NCBI RefSeq assembly: GCF_008035925.1
Contig: NZ_CP036264.1
Location: forward strand, 9,706,123-9,770,122
DNA: 64,000 bases
Source of the DNA: Stieleria maiorica
GTDB lineage: Bacteria > Planctomycetota > Planctomycetia > Pirellulales > Pirellulaceae
Direction of reading: 5' to 3'
Part shown: piece by piece, positions 9,987 through 51,069 of the stretch
Layout: every line of letters begins with the position of its first letter
How positions within the stretch are numbered: position 1 is the stretch's first letter
The notes under the pieces: generated by a model
What the model was told of the DNA's origin: nothing
Seen by the model: the letters and a program-made list of their open reading frames with translations, nothing else
Database searches by the model: none
Translations under genes and position numbers: made by a program

Positions 9987-10460
9987 TCAAACGCGGGTGT
10001 GTGTGCCGGTCATGAATCGCACCCAGTTGCCCTCGTCGTCTTGCAACGCGCTCGTCATCAGCCAACGATCGGAGGCCGCAATTTCGATGGTGTCGCGATA
10101 GTCACAGGTCCCCTTGCCGTCGAAGCGTGGACCGACGGTATCGAGCACCAGTCGGTTGCCGCCGGCCTCGCGCTGGCCGCTGTACTGCCAGAGGTTGGCC
10201 ATCATCGACCCGACGAACGTGCCGACGTATTGGTATTGTGACGGGTCATAACCGAGTGTCATGATCGACGACCAAGGGCCGCTTTCGGGTGCATCGCCGC
10301 TGCTTTCGCAGACCAGCCAGAGCCCACCGAGGGAGCGACACGTCATTTTGCCTTCGGTCTTCGATGTGTTCCCGTCGGGCATTTGGCAGTCGTGTTCAAA
10401 CTTCCAATCGCCGATCAATTGATCCAACCAGGCGTGCTCAGATTGCGGTTTGGCAAACAT
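9987..10460 (-). CDS. DUF1579 family protein
   Basis: A 157-aa protein of the DUF1579 family, a lipocalin-like calycin beta-barrel of unknown function common in planctomycetes and proteobacteria. The signature WLDQLIGDWKFEHDC opens the barrel; LWLVCESSG, MTLGYDPSQYQYVGTFVGSM and the closing WVRFMTGTHTRV strands follow in the usual order, and the full length matches the family. No signal peptide is visible, so it is cytoplasmic. It is the first gene of a likely two-gene unit with the deacetylase-family gene. Its upstream side opens into the REP array at 10.7 kb. Confidence 0.82.
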   Translation of the reverse strand: MFAKPQSEHAWLDQLIGDWKFEHDCQMPDGNTSKTEGKMTCRSLGGLWLVCESSGDAPESGPWSSIMTLGYDPSQYQYVGTFVGSMMANLWQYSGQREAGGNRLVLDTVGPRFDGKGTCDYRDTIEIAASDRWLMTSALQDDEGNWVRFMTGTHTRV

Positions 10461-10696
10461 TCTCGATGTCCAGACGATTTGTTGGGGTAAAGGGTGGAAA
10501 GAACTGCCACATGCAGGACAGCCGATCCCGACCGATTGTTTCCCGAAAGTCGATTCCGTGTGCCCGAATTCGACACGAAAACCGGGAAATTTTCGAAATT
10601 CCTCCCCGCATCATCCGCTCCAAAACCCCAATCCAATGCGCGCTCAAACTCGTTCCCCGCGCTCGCCTGGCGGCCGCCCACCGGGGTCCGCCCACC

Positions 10697-11044
10697 GGGG
10701 TCTGTCCCCACATGGCACGCCCACCGGGGTCTGTCCCTGTTTGGGCGCGACGTGATCGGGGTCCGACGTGATCGGGGTCTGTCCCCGGCTCGCGCTAACC
10801 TGGGGTCCGCGTCCACCTGGGGTGTGTCCCCATTTGCGCGACGTGATCGGGGTCTGTCCCCGGCTCGCGCTTACCTGGGGTCCGCGTCCACCCGGGGTGT
10901 GTCCCCATTTGGGCGCGACGGTTCAAAGTGATGGCACGCCAGGGGTCTGTCCCCGCGCGACTGGGGGCCGTGACCGGGGTCCGTCCGCGTCTTCACCCGG
11001 GGGCTGTCCCCACGCACGCCCATCCGTGACCGGGATCTGTCCCC
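10697..11044. repeat. REP-like array 1, core GGGGTCTGTCCCC
   Basis: Nine copies of a 13-base imperfect palindrome lie in one orientation: 10697, 10726 (last base changed), 10774, 10819, 10849, 10894, 10942, 10999 and 11032 (start positions). Five are exact or differ only in the last base; 10819 and 10894 read GGGGTGTGTCCCC, 10999 has GGGGGCTGTCCCC and 11032 GGGATCTGTCCCC. Half-copies with GGGGTCCG lie between them. The four outer G and C bases form the stem. The whole 740-bp interval between the DUF1579 gene and the L9-like gene is occupied by this array and its degenerate flanks; open frames running through it are by-products of the repeats. Confidence 0.9.
10765..10914. repeat. 75-bp tandem duplication inside REP array 1
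   Basis: Two consecutive units of 75 bp (10765-10839 and 10840-10914), each beginning GACGTGATCGGGGTCTGTCC and containing one GTCTG copy and one GTGTG copy of the palindrome. They differ at only a few positions (for example CTAACC versus TTACC near the middle). The array therefore grew at least partly by local tandem duplication of a two-palindrome unit. Confidence 0.85.
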
Positions 11045-11086
11045 GCATATCGCCGTCCCCGCATATCGCCGTCCCCGCATATCGCC
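11045..11086. repeat. 16-bp tandem repeat GCATATCGCCGTCCCC
   Basis: Three units start at 11045, 11061 and 11077, the last one broken after GCATATCGCC. Each unit ends in GTCCCC, the right half of the neighbouring palindrome, so it appears to be a degenerate or slipped derivative of the REP array's edge. Confidence 0.85.
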
Positions 11087-11200
11087 CCGTCCTTTTTCAT
11101 CGCACCGTCGGAACAATCGAGAGGAATCAAGACACGCTATAATTTGGCAAGTCGTCCGATTGCGGTCATTGTCGATTCCGACCGCCAAATGGAGGTCACC

Positions 11201-11965
11201 ATGATCGGTTGGCTTAAGTCATTGTTCGCCAGCGAGAAACGGAGCGATCCGGAACCAGACGACTTGTGGAACGCCATGGAATCGATGGATCCGCGAAATT
11301 CCCTCGCTCGGCTTCACCAATTGAAATTGGACTCGGAGCAATTCCCGGTCGTCAAAGGATTGCTCGACGGTACGCTTTCTCCGGCGGATTGCCCAGGCGT
11401 CACCGACTGGTGTCAATCCGAAGCGGTGGCCCCGACTGGCATGGACGGGCTCGCCTTTGCCCTACAACTTGCACTGAGGAGCTCCCGCACAACCTACGTC
11501 ATTCCGAAAGGTCAGAGTGTTCCAGCCGCAGTGCTGCCAAAATATGTCAGTCGCGGCCAGCTGACGATTGTCGTCAGCTACCTGGGCGGCACGCCGGTGA
11601 TCATCACATCGCTGGATGAGTATCTTTCGAGCAACAGCCTCGTTGACTTCTCCTTGGAAACGCTAACGCCGTCAAAGTTGCGTCGGCGACTACCGAGTCA
11701 GCCGACGACCGTGCGAGATCGTGACGTCACTTCAAGCGTCACAATCGCGAAACGTATCAACGAACAGGATCGTCTAGTGGAACCGCTGGCGGTGAAGGAG
11801 TTGGTCGACGCGATCAACCAAGAACTCGGCTACGATTTGACAGCGGACCAGCTACCGGAGGATTTACGCCCCATCGATCAGTTGGGTCTCTATAGTCTTG
11901 ATGTTCAAATCGATCACTCGACCAAAAAGAAAATCAAGGTCTGGGTTGTTCCATCCGTGGATTAG
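11201..11965 (+). CDS. Protein with ribosomal L9 C-domain-like end
   Basis: A 254-aa cytoplasmic protein. I start it at the ATG preceded by GGAGGTCACC; an in-frame Met at 11144 has no Shine-Dalgarno. Residues 1-110 are unrecognised (MIGWLKSLFASEKRSD, acidic and helical). Residues about 180-254 resemble the C-terminal domain of ribosomal protein L9: ELVDAINQELGYDLTADQLP, then PIDQLGLYSLDVQI and KKKIKVWVVP match the helix-strand-strand order and the LG.Y.V.V.....KVWVV pattern of L9. It lacks the L9 N-terminal rRNA-binding domain, so it is not L9 itself. The domain match is by eye and needs a profile search; the function is unknown. Confidence 0.72.
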   Translation: MIGWLKSLFASEKRSDPEPDDLWNAMESMDPRNSLARLHQLKLDSEQFPVVKGLLDGTLSPADCPGVTDWCQSEAVAPTGMDGLAFALQLALRSSRTTYVIPKGQSVPAAVLPKYVSRGQLTIVVSYLGGTPVIITSLDEYLSSNSLVDFSLETLTPSKLRRRLPSQPTTVRDRDVTSSVTIAKRINEQDRLVEPLAVKELVDAINQELGYDLTADQLPEDLRPIDQLGLYSLDVQIDHSTKKKIKVWVVPSVD

Positions 11966-12372
11966 ACCGAAATGCGACAGGTGTGTCCGCAGCAGTGTCT
12001 CTCGGGCCAGTATTTCCCGAGTCTGTCCCCGGTGAACTTGACGCGTGTGCAAGGATGGAGCTCCGGAATCGGGTTCTCGAAGGGCTCGTGGCCGATGCGG
12101 TTGAGCGAACCGGCTCGGGCAAGATGGTTTGGGCGTGAACGCGGCCAAGTCCTTAGGTGCCGGATTGGTCTAGAAGATGTCGAAAGGATCCTGTCCATCC
12201 TTCTCCCTGCCGCAGCAATGAGGCTGTGGCGATGAATGCGAATGGGGGATAGATCGCGAAACTGGATTCGCGACACCGCTCAGGTTACTGTCAGTACCTC
12301 CGAAATCCTTCTTTCGATGGACTTCTGCATTGCGACGCTCCCAGCTTTTGCGTGATGGTTGACACACCGTAC
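11966..12372. other. Interval with one degenerate REP copy
   Basis: 407 bp between the L9-like gene and the 3' end of the transposase gene. It carries a half-degenerate palindrome (GAGTCTGTCCCC ending at 12030, left GGGG arm lost) but no gene I can support. It is probably the transposase's downstream flank. Confidence 0.5.
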
Positions 12373-13491
12373 TTAAGCCGCCTGCCCAAACAAGACGCGG
12401 GTCTGTTTCGGGACATAAAAACGTCGTCCGGTCTGTTTGGTCCGCTCGGAATCGATATGCTCCGGTCGGCCGGCGATGGTGGAAAAGAGCTCACCGAAGT
12501 TTGCGACCAGCGACAACCAAACGGTCGGCGATAGACCGAGGCGTTCAAGAATCGGAGGGAGATCGCTCGGCGTCTGGCCTGGTTTGCCTCGGGCCAAGTT
12601 GCGTGCACTCCAGTCTAATAGCTCCAAGTAGTGCTCCTCGCTCATCGGCAGGAAACCTTTATCACTACAGCGGCCGCCCGCCTTGTTCGGCTGGGGGCCC
12701 ACCGCGCCTGTCGCTTCGTGGAGATTGATGGGTGAAAGAAAGCTATCCGCTCGTTTTTCTTGGTTGGCGGGTTTTGGCGCCGCGCCGTTTGGCGATTGGT
12801 CATCAGACGCCGCCGTCGGCGTATCTTGTTGGGGTTGCTCGGGTGGCCGCACCGATTCGGCGCGACGTTGTGCCGACGTATGGTCACTCATTTCAACTGT
12901 TTCTGCGATGCACGCGCGGATCAAATTCAAATCGACATAGACAGAACACGCCAAAACCGATTCCTCGTCAATCAGTGGAACAGCTGTAAATCGTTCTTCG
13001 AAGAAATGCCCCTTCACGCCATCTTCCTTGTTGGCACGCTGAGCGATTCGCTGATTCAAAAGACGCATCCACCACGAAAGATCGCTCAGTCGCCGCCGAA
13101 TCTCGGTAACTTTTTGGGGAGCATTTCGGATGCGATCAAGCTCTGGCTGTGATGGTGGCATGGGATCGCCCTGGTCATCCTTACGAACCGGGCAGATCAT
13201 CAGCCAACGCCGCGCCACTTCGCTGTCATCCCACGTTCTGACAACGTCGGGGCGAGATCGCAGCATCAGGTGGAAGTGATTCGACAGGATCGAAAAGGAG
13301 AGTAAGTCGATTCCAAAGGAGGCCGCGAATCGCACAAGCAGTTCTTCGATCCAGGCTTTGCGGTAACCGAGGTCATTGCCAGAGATTGGGTCTTTGCCGA
13401 AGAACCACCACGACCGGTTGGTTCGGCTGACCGCGTGGAAGATTTGAACGTCGCTCGGATCGACGAATTCGGAACGGTTTGATCTTGCCAT
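12373..13491 (-). CDS. REP-associated tyrosine transposase (RAYT, Y1/HUH family)
   Basis: A 372-aa IS200-like (Y1_Tnp) single-strand DNA transposase of the domesticated RAYT type. The HUH metal motif is His72-Phe73-His74 (ILSNHFHLMLRSRPD), the likely nucleophile is Tyr185 in ACSVYVDLNLIRACI, the place of the YI..NP.RAGL motif in RAYTs. A long C-terminal extension (about 215-372, Pro/Gln-rich then helical) is unlike the short IS200 enzymes. The start Met follows GGGGGAGACTCTGCG, a strong ribosome-binding site; in-frame codons upstream to 13566 are not needed. It is not bounded by IS ends or target duplications, but by two arrays of the palindrome GGGGTCTGTCCCC, as expected if these are the REP substrates it moves. 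Confidence 0.88.
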   Translation of the reverse strand: MARSNRSEFVDPSDVQIFHAVSRTNRSWWFFGKDPISGNDLGYRKAWIEELLVRFAASFGIDLLSFSILSNHFHLMLRSRPDVVRTWDDSEVARRWLMICPVRKDDQGDPMPPSQPELDRIRNAPQKVTEIRRRLSDLSWWMRLLNQRIAQRANKEDGVKGHFFEERFTAVPLIDEESVLACSVYVDLNLIRACIAETVEMSDHTSAQRRAESVRPPEQPQQDTPTAASDDQSPNGAAPKPANQEKRADSFLSPINLHEATGAVGPQPNKAGGRCSDKGFLPMSEEHYLELLDWSARNLARGKPGQTPSDLPPILERLGLSPTVWLSLVANFGELFSTIAGRPEHIDSERTKQTGRRFYVPKQTRVLFGQAA

Positions 13492-13656
13492 CGCAGAGTC
13501 TCCCCCAACTCGTTTCTGGAAACTTCCGCGGGCATGAGGATCTTTCTCATCCATTCGCGGCGACAAAACGAGTAATCGTGCTACTCTGCCTGACTGCCGT
13601 CATTCCACCCGATTGGAGACGTAAAGTCAAGGAAAAAATCGTGCTTCGCTCCACGC

Positions 13657-13816
13657 GGGGTCTGTCCCCACACCTGATACCCACCACACGGGGTCTGTCC
13701 CCGGTGGAGAGATTCCACACGTGAGTGTGATCCGGGGTCTGTCCCCAGGGTCCGAGATCGGGTCTGTCCCCATGCCCACGAATCCAGGTCCGGCGCATAG
13801 ACCGGGGTCTGTCCCC
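13657..13816. repeat. REP-like array 2 upstream of the transposase
   Basis: Five copies of the 13-base palindrome GGGGTCTGTCCCC start at 13657, 13690, 13734, 13759 (first base C) and 13804, all in the same orientation as array 1. Spacing is 33, 44, 25 and 45 bp, and the sequence between copies is not conserved. The array fills most of the 429-bp gap between the divergent transposase and sialidase genes and so also lies in both promoter regions. Confidence 0.9.
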
Positions 13817-13920
13817 GGGTGGGGAGCGGATTTGGTAGGGTGGGCGGCGGTGGGGGCTTGGGTTGATGGTTGAATACGTGTTGCTGGTGGTGCAGCGGGA
13901 GTCCAATGTTGGAGTTTTCG

Positions 13921-15090
13921 ATGAAGTGGTTGGTTTTTATTGGGGCGGTCATCATGGTGTCCGTGACCAGTGTGGTGGTTGCCGAGGAAGCGGCCCGGCA
14001 GGCGGTGGTGCTTCGACTGCCGCCCACGCCTTCGAACCCTCGTAATAGTGAAGGTGATTTCGTGCGGCTAAATGATGGCCGGATCCTGTTCGTCTATACA
14101 CATTTCACCGGTGGCGGTGGCGATCATTCCACGGCGCATCTGGCCGGTCGCTTCTCCTCCGACGACGGCAGGACTTGGGATGACGCCGACACATTGATCC
14201 TGGAAAACAACGCCACGCAAAACATCATGTCGGTGTCGCTGCTGCGGCTGGCCGACGACCGCATCGCGATGTTTTACCTCCGAAAACAGTCGCTGCAGGA
14301 TTGCCGGCCGGTGGTCCGATTCAGTGATGACGAGGCGAAGACGTGGACTGTGCCGACCGAGATCATCCCTGATTCGGAAGTCGGTTACTACGTCCTGAAC
14401 AACGACCGCGTGATCCAACTACACAATGCCCAAGAATACAACGCCCAACAACACAACGGACGCCTGGTCGTTCCGGTCGCCCTGCATCACACGCCGGATC
14501 AAGAAAAACCGGATTGGACCGGCCGCGTGATGTGCTATCTGAGCGATGATGCCGGAAAGTCCTGGCAACGAAGCAAGACCACCATGCAGGCCCACGATCC
14601 TAACACCGGCCGACGTCTGGTCGCCCAAGAACCGGGCGTCGTCCAGCTTCACGATGACCGCGTGATGATGTTCGTCCGCTCCAACGCCGGAAGCCAGTTG
14701 TTCAGCCATTCGCACGACGGCGGTGACACGTGGTCGCCACTGACCCCGTCGACGCTTCAATCTCCGACCTCCCCGGCGACCATCGAACGCATCCCCGAAA
14801 GCGACTCGCTGGTCTGCGTCTGGAACGATCACGCGAACATCACGCCCGAACTGCGGGGGAAACGGACGCCGCTTTCCTTGGCCACCAGCAGCGACGGGGG
14901 AGCGACCTGGAGTCCTTCGATCACCCTCTTCGACAATCCCGACGGATGGTACTGCTACACCGCCCTCGAGTTCACGCCGGACGCCGTCCTGCTGGGACAC
15001 TGCGCCGGTGATCGCACCAAGAACAACGGCCTGGCCGAATCCCAGATCACACGCCTCCCGTGGAGCATTCTCGGCGAGCTGCGCCCGTGA
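13921..15090 (+). CDS. Secreted sialidase-like BNR-repeat protein
   Basis: A 389-aa exported protein with a six-bladed sialidase/neuraminidase fold. MKWLVFIGAVIMVSVTSVVVA is the signal peptide. Five Asp-box (SxDxGxxW) repeats are visible: SSDDGRTW, SDDEAKTW, SDDAGKSW, SHDGGDTW and SSDGGATW, with SEGDFVRLNDGRILFVYTHF at the first blade. Planctomycete members act on polysaccharides or glycoproteins; true sialidase activity is uncertain because the Arg triad cannot be assigned by eye. The start has GGAG six bases upstream; another ATG at 13906 would add 5 residues. The gene is divergent from the transposase and convergent with the UDG gene. Confidence 0.85.
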   Translation: MKWLVFIGAVIMVSVTSVVVAEEAARQAVVLRLPPTPSNPRNSEGDFVRLNDGRILFVYTHFTGGGGDHSTAHLAGRFSSDDGRTWDDADTLILENNATQNIMSVSLLRLADDRIAMFYLRKQSLQDCRPVVRFSDDEAKTWTVPTEIIPDSEVGYYVLNNDRVIQLHNAQEYNAQQHNGRLVVPVALHHTPDQEKPDWTGRVMCYLSDDAGKSWQRSKTTMQAHDPNTGRRLVAQEPGVVQLHDDRVMMFVRSNAGSQLFSHSHDGGDTWSPLTPSTLQSPTSPATIERIPESDSLVCVWNDHANITPELRGKRTPLSLATSSDGGATWSPSITLFDNPDGWYCYTALEFTPDAVLLGHCAGDRTKNNGLAESQITRLPWSILGELRP

Positions 15091-50178: not shown

Positions 50179-51069
50179 GTGATTAGATCGGGCAGTCTAC
50201 GGACGACAATGTTTGCATGCATTTTTACTGCGGTGTTGACACCGCGCTGGGCCGAAGCCGGCGGCAACTCGCCGATCTACGTGGCGGCGAGCGATTACCG
50301 AGACGCGGTGAAAGCGTTTGAACGCGTGGTGCTGCGGACGCCGAAGATTCGCAGCAGCGTCGAGCGTCTGGTGGATGACTTGGAGGACAGCACCAGTGAT
50401 TTGAAGTCGGCCGCCCGCGATCCGGCGCGACTGGACCGATTGCTCAGCCGGTTTGTCGCGACCGACGCATTGCACTGTCGCGTCGAGTTGACGTTTTTTG
50501 GCGACCCGATTTTTCCGGCCGAGCCTCGGTTGGAGGAAAGTTGGATCGCGGTTTACGAAGCATACGGCCGGTTGGTTTACGAGATTCGTTACCTTCAGCA
50601 ATTACGCAGTGCCAAGCGAGGTCGGCCGATCGCGATCGTCGACCACCGGTACGCCCCCCCAACCGCCTACGAGCCGGCAGTGGTCGCCCGCAGCCCGGCC
50701 GACGCCTACCGATCCGCCACCACGGGGTCTGTCCCCAGCTTCAGATCCGCCACCGCGGGGTCTGTCCCCAGCTTCACGGGGTCTGTCCCCGGAGTCGCTG
50801 GAGTCATCACGGGGTCTGTCCCCGGTGTCACGGGGTCTGTCCCCAGAGTCATCACGGGGTCTGTCCCCGGTGTCACGGGGTCTGTCCCCAGAGTCAACCG
50901 ATCCGCCACGACGGGGTCTGTCCCCGGAGTCAGCGGTCCGGCGGCTTTGCCGCGTGGTGCACGGCTACAACGTCCGCCGGGGGCACCGGCACCGACGCGT
51001 CGAATCATTTCGACTCCCGAACAGCTCCGTTCTGCGATCCTGGGGGCGATCTTGCAGCGGCAGCGTTAG
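50179..51069 (+). CDS. Secreted protein with inserted GSVP repeats
   Basis: A 296-aa protein starting with GTG, preceded by GGGAGGACTTCAC, a strong ribosome-binding site. Residues 1-30 are a signal peptide (MFACIFTAVLTPRWAEAG). Residues about 35-165 form a helical domain of unknown function (DYRDAVKAFERVVLRTPKIR, VDDLEDSTSDLKSAARDP, VYEAYGRLVYEIRYLQ). Residues about 180-255 are eight (T/A)GSVP units produced by the palindrome GGGGTCTGTCCCC, in frame. A Pro-rich C terminus follows (PTRRIISTPEQLRSAI). The repeats have no counterpart in the helical domain, so they look inserted. The function is unknown. Confidence 0.8.
   Translation: MIRSGSLRTTMFACIFTAVLTPRWAEAGGNSPIYVAASDYRDAVKAFERVVLRTPKIRSSVERLVDDLEDSTSDLKSAARDPARLDRLLSRFVATDALHCRVELTFFGDPIFPAEPRLEESWIAVYEAYGRLVYEIRYLQQLRSAKRGRPIAIVDHRYAPPTAYEPAVVARSPADAYRSATTGSVPSFRSATAGSVPSFTGSVPGVAGVITGSVPGVTGSVPRVITGSVPGVTGSVPRVNRSATTGSVPGVSGPAALPRGARLQRPPGAPAPTRRIISTPEQLRSAILGAILQRQR
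50724..50925. repeat. REP-like array 3, inside a coding sequence
   Basis: Eight perfect copies of GGGGTCTGTCCCC start at 50724, 50757, 50778, 50811, 50832, 50856, 50877 and 50913, in the same orientation as arrays 1 and 2. Spacings of 33, 21, 33, 21, 24, 21 and 36 are all multiples of three, so the frame of the host gene is kept and each copy reads GGG TCT GTC CCC (Gly-Ser-Val-Pro). Perfect conservation contrasts with the degraded copies at array 1. Confidence 0.92.

Follow-up and report, generated by a model that had tools for sequence, protein, structure and literature searches.

A gene for a tyrosine transposase of the HUH type (HUH-Tyr) that is flanked by a short, lineage-specific palindrome dispersed through the genome characterizes the RAYT/REP systems, or REPtrons (REP, repetitive extragenic palindromic; RAYT, REP-associated tyrosine transposase), among them TnpA_REP of E. 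coli and Stenotrophomonas. We describe here a locus with this arrangement in Stieleria maiorica, in a stretch of 64,000 nucleotides (contig NZ_CP036264.1, positions 9,706,123 to 9,770,122; hereafter the window), where a transposase gene lies between two arrays of the palindrome GGGGTCTGTCCCC. For the RAYT/REP systems it was proposed that new REP copies form near the gene (Nunvar 2010, PMC2817692). The window system resembles TnpA_REP also in the best structural match of its protein, 4er8, but differs from the RAYT/REP systems in that it has no GTAG foot, its hairpin is 13 nt long, and its arrays have a single orientation instead of the alternating pairs called BIME or REPIN. The protein differs as well, with 372 aa, two core insertions and a long C-terminal part.

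In its description of subclass 2.3 of the TnpA_Y1 transposases, a published survey lists the motifs NHYH, WE and YVDLNP, core insertions of 10 aa and 55 aa after beta-1 and beta-3, and a long C-terminal tail (Quentin 2018, PMC6006769); the members named there are from Chromatiales and Alteromonadales, and the entry reads 'REP: no' (PMC6006769). The window protein shares with this subclass NH.H, YVDLN, insertions of about the listed 10 and 55 residues, the long C-terminal tail, and the presence of several genes per genome. Unlike the published members, those collected here are mostly from planctomycetes, and at least two copies of a short flanking motif (the tip, see below) are found at 94 of 141 distinct loci; the published trait of lacking REP-like flanks does not hold for these loci. 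The TIRYT systems (TIRtrons) have terminal inverted repeats (TIRs) around a Y1 gene, some with the consensus GGGGWSAS, and some TIR families occur as dispersed dimers or clusters (Di Nocera 2013, PMC3733652); 20 of the 26 TIRYT examples considered in the survey were assigned to subclass 2.1 (PMC6006769). The tips GGGGACAG, of the window gene's clade and many relatives, and GGGGACAC, of many relatives, fit GGGGWSAS, whereas GGGGACAT and the AGGGACA tips of other relatives do not. TIRYT repeats are long; here a 7-nt tip is joined to a clade-specific inner half and occurs in tandem arrays, and in the clade of the window gene the motif is palindromic and has one orientation on both sides. The IS200/IS605 elements use HUH-Tyr chemistry and have short hairpins at their ends, and the window system resembles them in its chemistry, its hairpins and its structural matches to IS608 and ISDra2. 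They are defined, however, by a short TnpA with the motif Y[IV]ENQ and by near-identical mobile copies (PMC6006769), whereas the window protein is long and has YVDLN, its hairpins form dispersed clusters, and the two copies of its clade in this genome are only 68% identical.

The transposase and its palindrome in the genome

The original prediction had placed the transposase gene between nine copies of the palindrome on the left and five on the right, all in the same orientation, with a degraded copy near 12020. This description was borne out. The left cluster contains four exact copies (10697, 10774, 10849 and 10942) and five with one mismatch (10726, 10819, 10894, 10999 and 11032), the right cluster contains four exact copies (13657, 13690, 13734 and 13804) and one with one mismatch (13759), every copy of the two clusters has the common orientation, and the degraded copy is present (Table 1). 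The inventory of clusters was incomplete, since a third array had been missed. It sits inside a coding frame, where it is translated as TGSVP-type repeats, and its spacings (33, 21, 33, 21, 24, 21 and 36) are all multiples of 3; no palindrome was found in the homologous gene of 12 other genomes of the genus that were examined, five of the homologues being 73-77% identical. The window holds 16 exact copies in all, against none in 100 shuffles of the window. Chance origin was rejected on these shuffles and on the complete absence of the reversed pattern from the genome, and a known structured RNA was rejected because Rfam gave no match across 10400-14200.

Table 1. Features of the window discussed in the text
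Feature	Coordinates	Strand	Remarks
Left palindrome cluster, downstream side of transposase gene	10697-11044	+	9 GGGGTCTGTCCCC copies with at most 1 mismatch
Degraded palindrome copy	12018-12030 (approximate)	+	two mismatches, found by eye
RAYT-like HUH-Tyr (Y1) transposase, 372 aa	12373-13491	-	open frame; homology match 12376-13491 without stops
Right palindrome cluster, upstream side of transposase gene	13657-13816	+	5 copies with at most 1 mismatch
Frame carrying third array, 358 codons	49993-51069	+	true start probably further in; searched product begins MFACIFTAVL
Third array, 8 exact copies	50724-50925	+	same orientation as other window arrays

The whole genome (one contig, 9,894,293 bases) contains 82 exact copies (43 + 39) against 0 of the reversed control pattern, far in excess of that control. 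When up to two mismatches were allowed, 284 palindrome sites were found versus 134 for the reversed pattern, indicating that part of the two-mismatch sites are due to chance. The exact copies fall into 15 clusters (gaps up to 5 kb), and all 67 neighbouring exact pairs within a cluster share their orientation; the pairs in inverted orientation that mark REPINs and BIMEs were therefore not found in this genome, and mixed orientation was seen near locus L066 and in places of the genomes G417 and G414 (L and G numbers are our labels for loci and genomes). Among the 82 exact copies, a pyrimidine (C or T) precedes the palindrome (-1) in 99% and a purine (G or A) follows it (+13) in 89%; no other position beyond the 13 bases is conserved. 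The strand forms a hairpin of 13 nt with a 4-bp G4/C4 stem and a 5-nt loop, often with a fifth pair from the flanking pyrimidine and purine, and the motif with flanking C/G folded as a single strand at -5.0 kcal/mol.

No gene of the window clade (defined below) adjoins 13 of the 15 clusters. Nine of these 13 lie at most 400 kb from either of the two clade genes, where 16% were expected (binomial 2.9e-5; median distance p 1.1e-4); the orientation of the clusters along the chromosome showed no pattern by eye. The commonest spacing between neighbouring exact copies is 21 bp, which is also the minimum, and spacings of 20 bp occur in this genome and in L074 once one-mismatch copies are counted. Unrelated spacers of 8 or 9 nt that give a spacing of 21 or 22 bp were found in separate clusters, in 8 of 13 close-set ones here and in 10 of 12 in G417 (eleven stretches examined). 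A fixed cutting distance would explain this recurrence, while slippage alone would not. At L056 (9.8097-9.8106 Mb), the spacings 26, 197 and 29 occur three times and make up a larger tandem unit of 252 bp.

The catalytic residues of the transposase are His72, His74 and Tyr185 (Met = 1). In an alignment of 30 sequences, from which L092 (which has a stop) and L139 were left out, H71, H73, Y184 and N188 (numbered without Met) are invariant, and the tyrosine motif, YVDLNL here, has the consensus YVDLNP. An AlphaFold2 model built from this alignment (pTM 0.85) matched best, among PDB entries, 4er8, a REP-associated tyrosine transposase with bound REP hairpin (E 1.4e-3, probability 1.00; TM-score 0.65 by target and 0.31 by query); the next matches were mostly transposases of the IS200/IS605 type, among them IS608 and ISDra2. 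At the sequence level, the NCBIfam model REP_Tyr_transpos gave E 0.0039 and 17.1 bits, below its cut-off of 80; the Pfam library gave no match at 0.001, a PDB sequence search returned only tryparedoxin (E 0.047 or worse), and the Pfam Y1 model found four other loci in the genome and missed the window gene. The motifs (NHFH, FFEERF and YVDLNL in the window copy; FWEGRF and YVDLNP in another aligned row) and, in the model, two core insertions, one after beta-1 and one between the HUH strand and the next long helix, together with a long C-terminal part, fit TnpA_Y1 subclass 2.3 and not subclass 2.2 of E. coli, an assignment made by comparing the published motifs and insertions with our alignment and model.

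Flanking motifs and protein clades among related transposases

Homology search of this genome returned ten matches, of which nine are long genes. The gene at 3.83 Mb shares 68% identity with the window gene and has the same palindrome on both flanks; GTGCC[AG]TGTCCCC flanks two genes of 61-62% identity, and five at 39% identity, which are mutually at least 98.9% identical over the frame, are flanked by GGTGCCACCCACC or close variants. The flanking motifs of the other transposase clades in this genome thus differ from the window palindrome. GGTGCCACCCACC is present in 20 exact copies and folded as a single strand at -3.3 kcal/mol, no better than many of its shuffles. The five frames it flanks (L059-L063, of the GGTGCCA class described below) lie at about 4.64, 5.01, 5.13, 5.88 and 7.37 Mb; a tip stands at -70 or -72 in four of them, and in two pairs the homology begins 5-7 bases outside the tip position. 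In the 60 bases upstream, three of the frames match the remaining two at only 17-20 of 60 positions, and the right flanks are grouped differently, as if the frame had undergone gene conversion or mosaic transposition.

For a wider comparison we used 145 loci, all with a match: the best 80 of 163 relatives in public genomes, nine from this genome and 56 from further genomes. Removal of four duplicates left 141 distinct loci, of which six distant ones (five in G313, one in G236) are without tips. An automatic motif finder scored 95 of the 145 loci above all ten shuffles, but it also picked unrelated simple repeats; therefore, tip counts were used instead. The 94 loci with at least two flanking tips (GGGGACA/AGGGACA or GGTGCCA) were classed by the tips within 700 bp of the gene: in 71, [GA]GGGACA tips numbered two or more and were in the majority, and 23 were of the GGTGCCA class. 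The profile of density with distance is a fairer test than such counts of tips chosen post hoc. At the 80 public-genome loci, the density of outward [GA]GGGACA tips was 6.3 per kb at 200-300 bp on the left and 5.0 on the right; between 100 bp and 1 kb right of the gene it exceeded 1 per kb, and past 1 kb the outward strand had less than 0.7 per kb on both sides.

Pooled over distinct loci, [GA]GGGACA tips numbered 188 on the + and 31 on the - strand to the left of the gene, and 166 on the - and 56 on the + strand to the right; the corresponding numbers for GGTGCCA were 38, 2, 45 and 3. By locus, the arrangement was inverted in 46 of the 94, direct in 12 (with L099 and L101 resting on two tip copies each), one-sided or mixed in 36, and inward on both sides in none. 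The window gene is not flanked by inverted repeats; its copies have one orientation on both sides. On the evidence of these flanks, the one-orientation palindrome on both sides is a trait of a few clades, and most classifiable relatives have outward-tipped terminal inverted repeats. A gammaproteobacterial relative, L143 (Candidatus Azophilus), has seven GTGTGTCCC-type motifs in inverted arrangement, which suggests that the tip code may reach beyond planctomycetes.

We next set the motifs against a FastTree tree of 110 proteins, selected by length and score filters with identical proteins dropped; several of its branches are long. The tip class changed three times among 77 labelled rows, versus 17.1 on average and never fewer than 11 in 300 shuffles, and the inner half of the motif correlated with tree distance among the 48 rows of the GGGGACA class (r 0.43; as high in none of 5000 permutations). 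The window gene falls in a clade of eight rows (support 99), here called the window clade, whose sister clade of seven rows (support 99) has the motif GGGGACAYGGCA, also given as GGGGACAYGGCACC. At least three window palindromes with no more than one mismatch were found within 700 bp at all eight window-clade loci and at none of the 133 other distinct loci. Such tests on sequences, partly driven by shared ancestry, show clustering rather than binding; that motif and transposase vary together across the relatives suggests that the enzyme recognises and spreads the motif. The number of stem pairs formed (of four) averaged 3.4 in the window clade versus 1.6 in 46 other loci of the [GA]GGGACA class, and within that class 2.96 at direct loci (9 loci) versus 1.51 at inverted loci (25 loci). 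The GGTGCCA-class motifs pair well, yet are inverted, and therefore the hairpin and the direct orientation are not tied together.

Exact-copy counts divide the genus, with 58-231 in seven of 14 genomes and 0-8 in the other seven. Within the genus, the gene search covered the window genome (G000), G417 (TBK1r), G418 (JC639), G401, G376 and G328, and of G409-G416 only 240 kb of G409. The palindrome-rich G000, G417 and G418 have two clade genes each, whereas the best matches in G401, G376 and G328 (8, 5 and 3 copies) reached at most 460 bits, versus 604-688 for clade rows, and fell outside the window clade when placed on the tree. Of 119 genomes of the family, 14 have any palindrome copy, and 72 a relative of the gene at E 1e-20; in the phylum, any copy was found in 29 of 294 genomes and more than three only in the window genome and G236.

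A genome rich in the palindrome and lacking any RAYT had been named as the finding that would speak against the original prediction, and G236 comes part of the way: it has 63 copies and a distant Y1 gene only, in an incomplete assembly; on three of the four contigs examined, copies are no more than about 700 bases from a contig end. The flanks of this distant gene (L177) contain AAGGGGTCAGCCCCCGTGCG and an inverted copy of it, another G4-N5-C4 motif, and its GGGGTCAG fits GGGGWSAS. G313, with 39 copies, bears on the same point, the copies listed there belonging to a distant Y1 element. This genome has 46 matches to a distant long Y1 protein, many in frames of about 540-650 aa; each of the 33 listed palindromes is found 2.1-2.9 kb downstream of the start of a Y1 gene, on the strand of that gene, and they adjoin 13 of the 42 longer Y1 matches examined. 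Over about 2.75-2.85 kb, seven of these elements share 92-96% identity with an eighth. That the G313 palindromes accompany a distant Y1 element supports the palindrome as a Y1 substrate, and not a one-to-one code. Two Y1 subfamilies were seen in G313 (L221-L232), with GGGGTCTGTCCCC or TGCCTGGCACC repeats in their downstream parts.

The palindrome as a candidate substrate, and other explanations

We consider it likely that the gene and the palindrome are a cognate enzyme-substrate pair of the RAYT/REP kind, in a TIRYT-like variant belonging to subclass 2.3. The placement of the palindrome on both sides of the gene, its genome-wide excess, its covariation with the protein, the hairpin-forming strand, the catalytic residues and the TnpA_REP-like fold were read from sequence or model, and from these we infer that the enzyme acts on the palindrome. 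The protein would bind the hairpin as single-stranded DNA, cut beside it through Tyr185, and rejoin the ends, depositing or duplicating palindrome copies. As a result, each array would have a single orientation and favour a unit of 21-22 bp (13 + 8 or 9 nt), and most new clusters would arise no farther than a few hundred kilobases from the gene. Gene and palindrome would descend from, or share ancestry with, transposons ending in inverted GGGGACA-tipped repeats, the GGGGACA-tipped motif having turned palindromic in the window clade. The original prediction of a planctomycete counterpart of RAYT/REP is partly supported. It is upheld in the HUH-Tyr protein with its TnpA_REP-like model, the genome-wide palindrome and the clade-specific flanks; it needs amending in that there is no GTAG foot, the protein fits subclass 2.3, and most classifiable relatives are of the TIR type.

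Several observations weigh against a cognate pair. Four palindrome-rich genomes (G409 with 231 copies, G413 with 79, G412 with 74 and G410 with 69) were outside the gene search, and the 240 kb of G409, picked by guessed synteny, contained neither gene nor palindrome, which says little about G409. The single distant Y1 gene of G236 is flanked by GGGGTCAGCCCCC-type repeats, and a subclass-2.3 match was not found in that assembly (84% complete, about 900 contigs). A single exact window palindrome adjoins L109, outside the clade, and in G328 related motifs of the G4/C4 type lie to the right of some genes from outside the clade (GGGGCCAGACCCC and GGGGACAGGCCCC near L186, GGGGACACACCCT near L195), possibly a second origin of such hairpins. 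The two clade genes of this genome are in opposite orientation relative to their own arrays. A conserved foot tetranucleotide of the GT[AG]G or CGTC type was not found in the flanks of the 82 exact copies, and the structural match to 4er8, which depends on the model, is moderate. Of two further motifs tested, that of the sister clade and one typical inverted tip, neither folded as a single strand, and therefore a hairpin is not required across the whole family. Fewer than two tips of either class were found at 47 of the 141 loci, at some of which the contig ends, and the GGTGCCA tip, represented by few loci among the 80, peaked at 1.0 per kb on the left and did not clearly do so on the right. 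The tips and the 700-bp limit were picked after the data were seen, relatedness and array copies inflate the tests, and the 400-kb limit was likewise chosen after the distances were known, with clusters that are possibly non-independent.

One could envisage that the palindromes are host elements, such as terminators or nucleoid or regulator sites, and that transposases landed at these hairpins without spreading them. A short motif folding into a stable hairpin would suit such a role, as would the 13 clusters without an adjoining clade gene and the copy-rich G236 without a subclass-2.3 match; however, a host site is not expected to vary with the transposase clade, to be absent from most relatives in the family, or to appear as eight in-frame copies in a gene whose examined homologues are without it, and the clusters concentrate near clade genes. 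We regard this explanation as highly improbable. The growth of the arrays might also be separate from the enzyme: the transposase would have made the first insertions long ago and would now be inactive on them, the arrays having expanded in tandem by slippage or recombination. Spacers do recur within an array, one array has the 252-bp unit, and all copies of a cluster in this genome share one orientation. On the other hand, units of 21-22 bp have unrelated spacers in separate clusters here and in G417 (units of 20 bp occur too), and the catalytic residues are intact, so tandem expansion seems unlikely to us.

It is also conceivable, although we think it quite doubtful, that the clusters are remnants marking the ends of a complete transposon and that the present transposase does not mobilise single palindromes. 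The preponderance of inverted over direct loci agrees with this, as do the dispersed and nearly identical GGTGCCA-class copies with their regularly placed tips and homology edges, and the multicopy Y1 elements of G313 with the palindrome downstream of the gene. Remnants of this kind would not account for the many clusters of this genome that have no adjoining clade gene, nor for the in-frame array, which consists of palindromes and short spacers only.

These loci bear on how REP sequences arise from transposon ends. On a tentative reading, the window clade may record the birth of a REP sequence. The non-palindromic, GGGGACA-tipped TIRs of a subclass-2.3 transposon would have become a short hairpin; one strand would thereby have been able to present the two ends in direct orientation, and from single ends a dispersing, array-forming repeat would have arisen, copied in 21-22-bp units that a fixed cutting distance sets. 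In that case, subclass 2.3 would amount to a widespread REP/TIR system that has been overlooked, its recognition code (a GGKGMCA tip and a clade-specific inner half) being unlike the GTAG code. The family offers, in related genes, a series from non-folding inverted tips through weak to full hairpins with matching changes in the protein; a subclass published as REP-less gains a testable substrate, with a code open to exchange between clades in vitro. Concrete predictions on the position of the cut and on the origin of new protein repeats follow from the 21-22-bp unit and from the in-frame array.

Other motif arrays and a neighbouring gene

A literal search of the literature (open-licence papers, without supplements) did not find four of the flanking 13-mers. 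In G395, the loci of a subclass-2.3 relative (L236-L238) have long 19-bp tandem arrays of the motif GTGAGTGTCCCC on the left and a few copies in the same orientation on the right, and a second multicopy family in that genome has GGTGGGTGCCT motifs. In the window, the region between the left array and the transposase gene (11144-11965) encodes a protein with a weak C-terminal match to Ribosomal_L9_C (E 1.8e-5).

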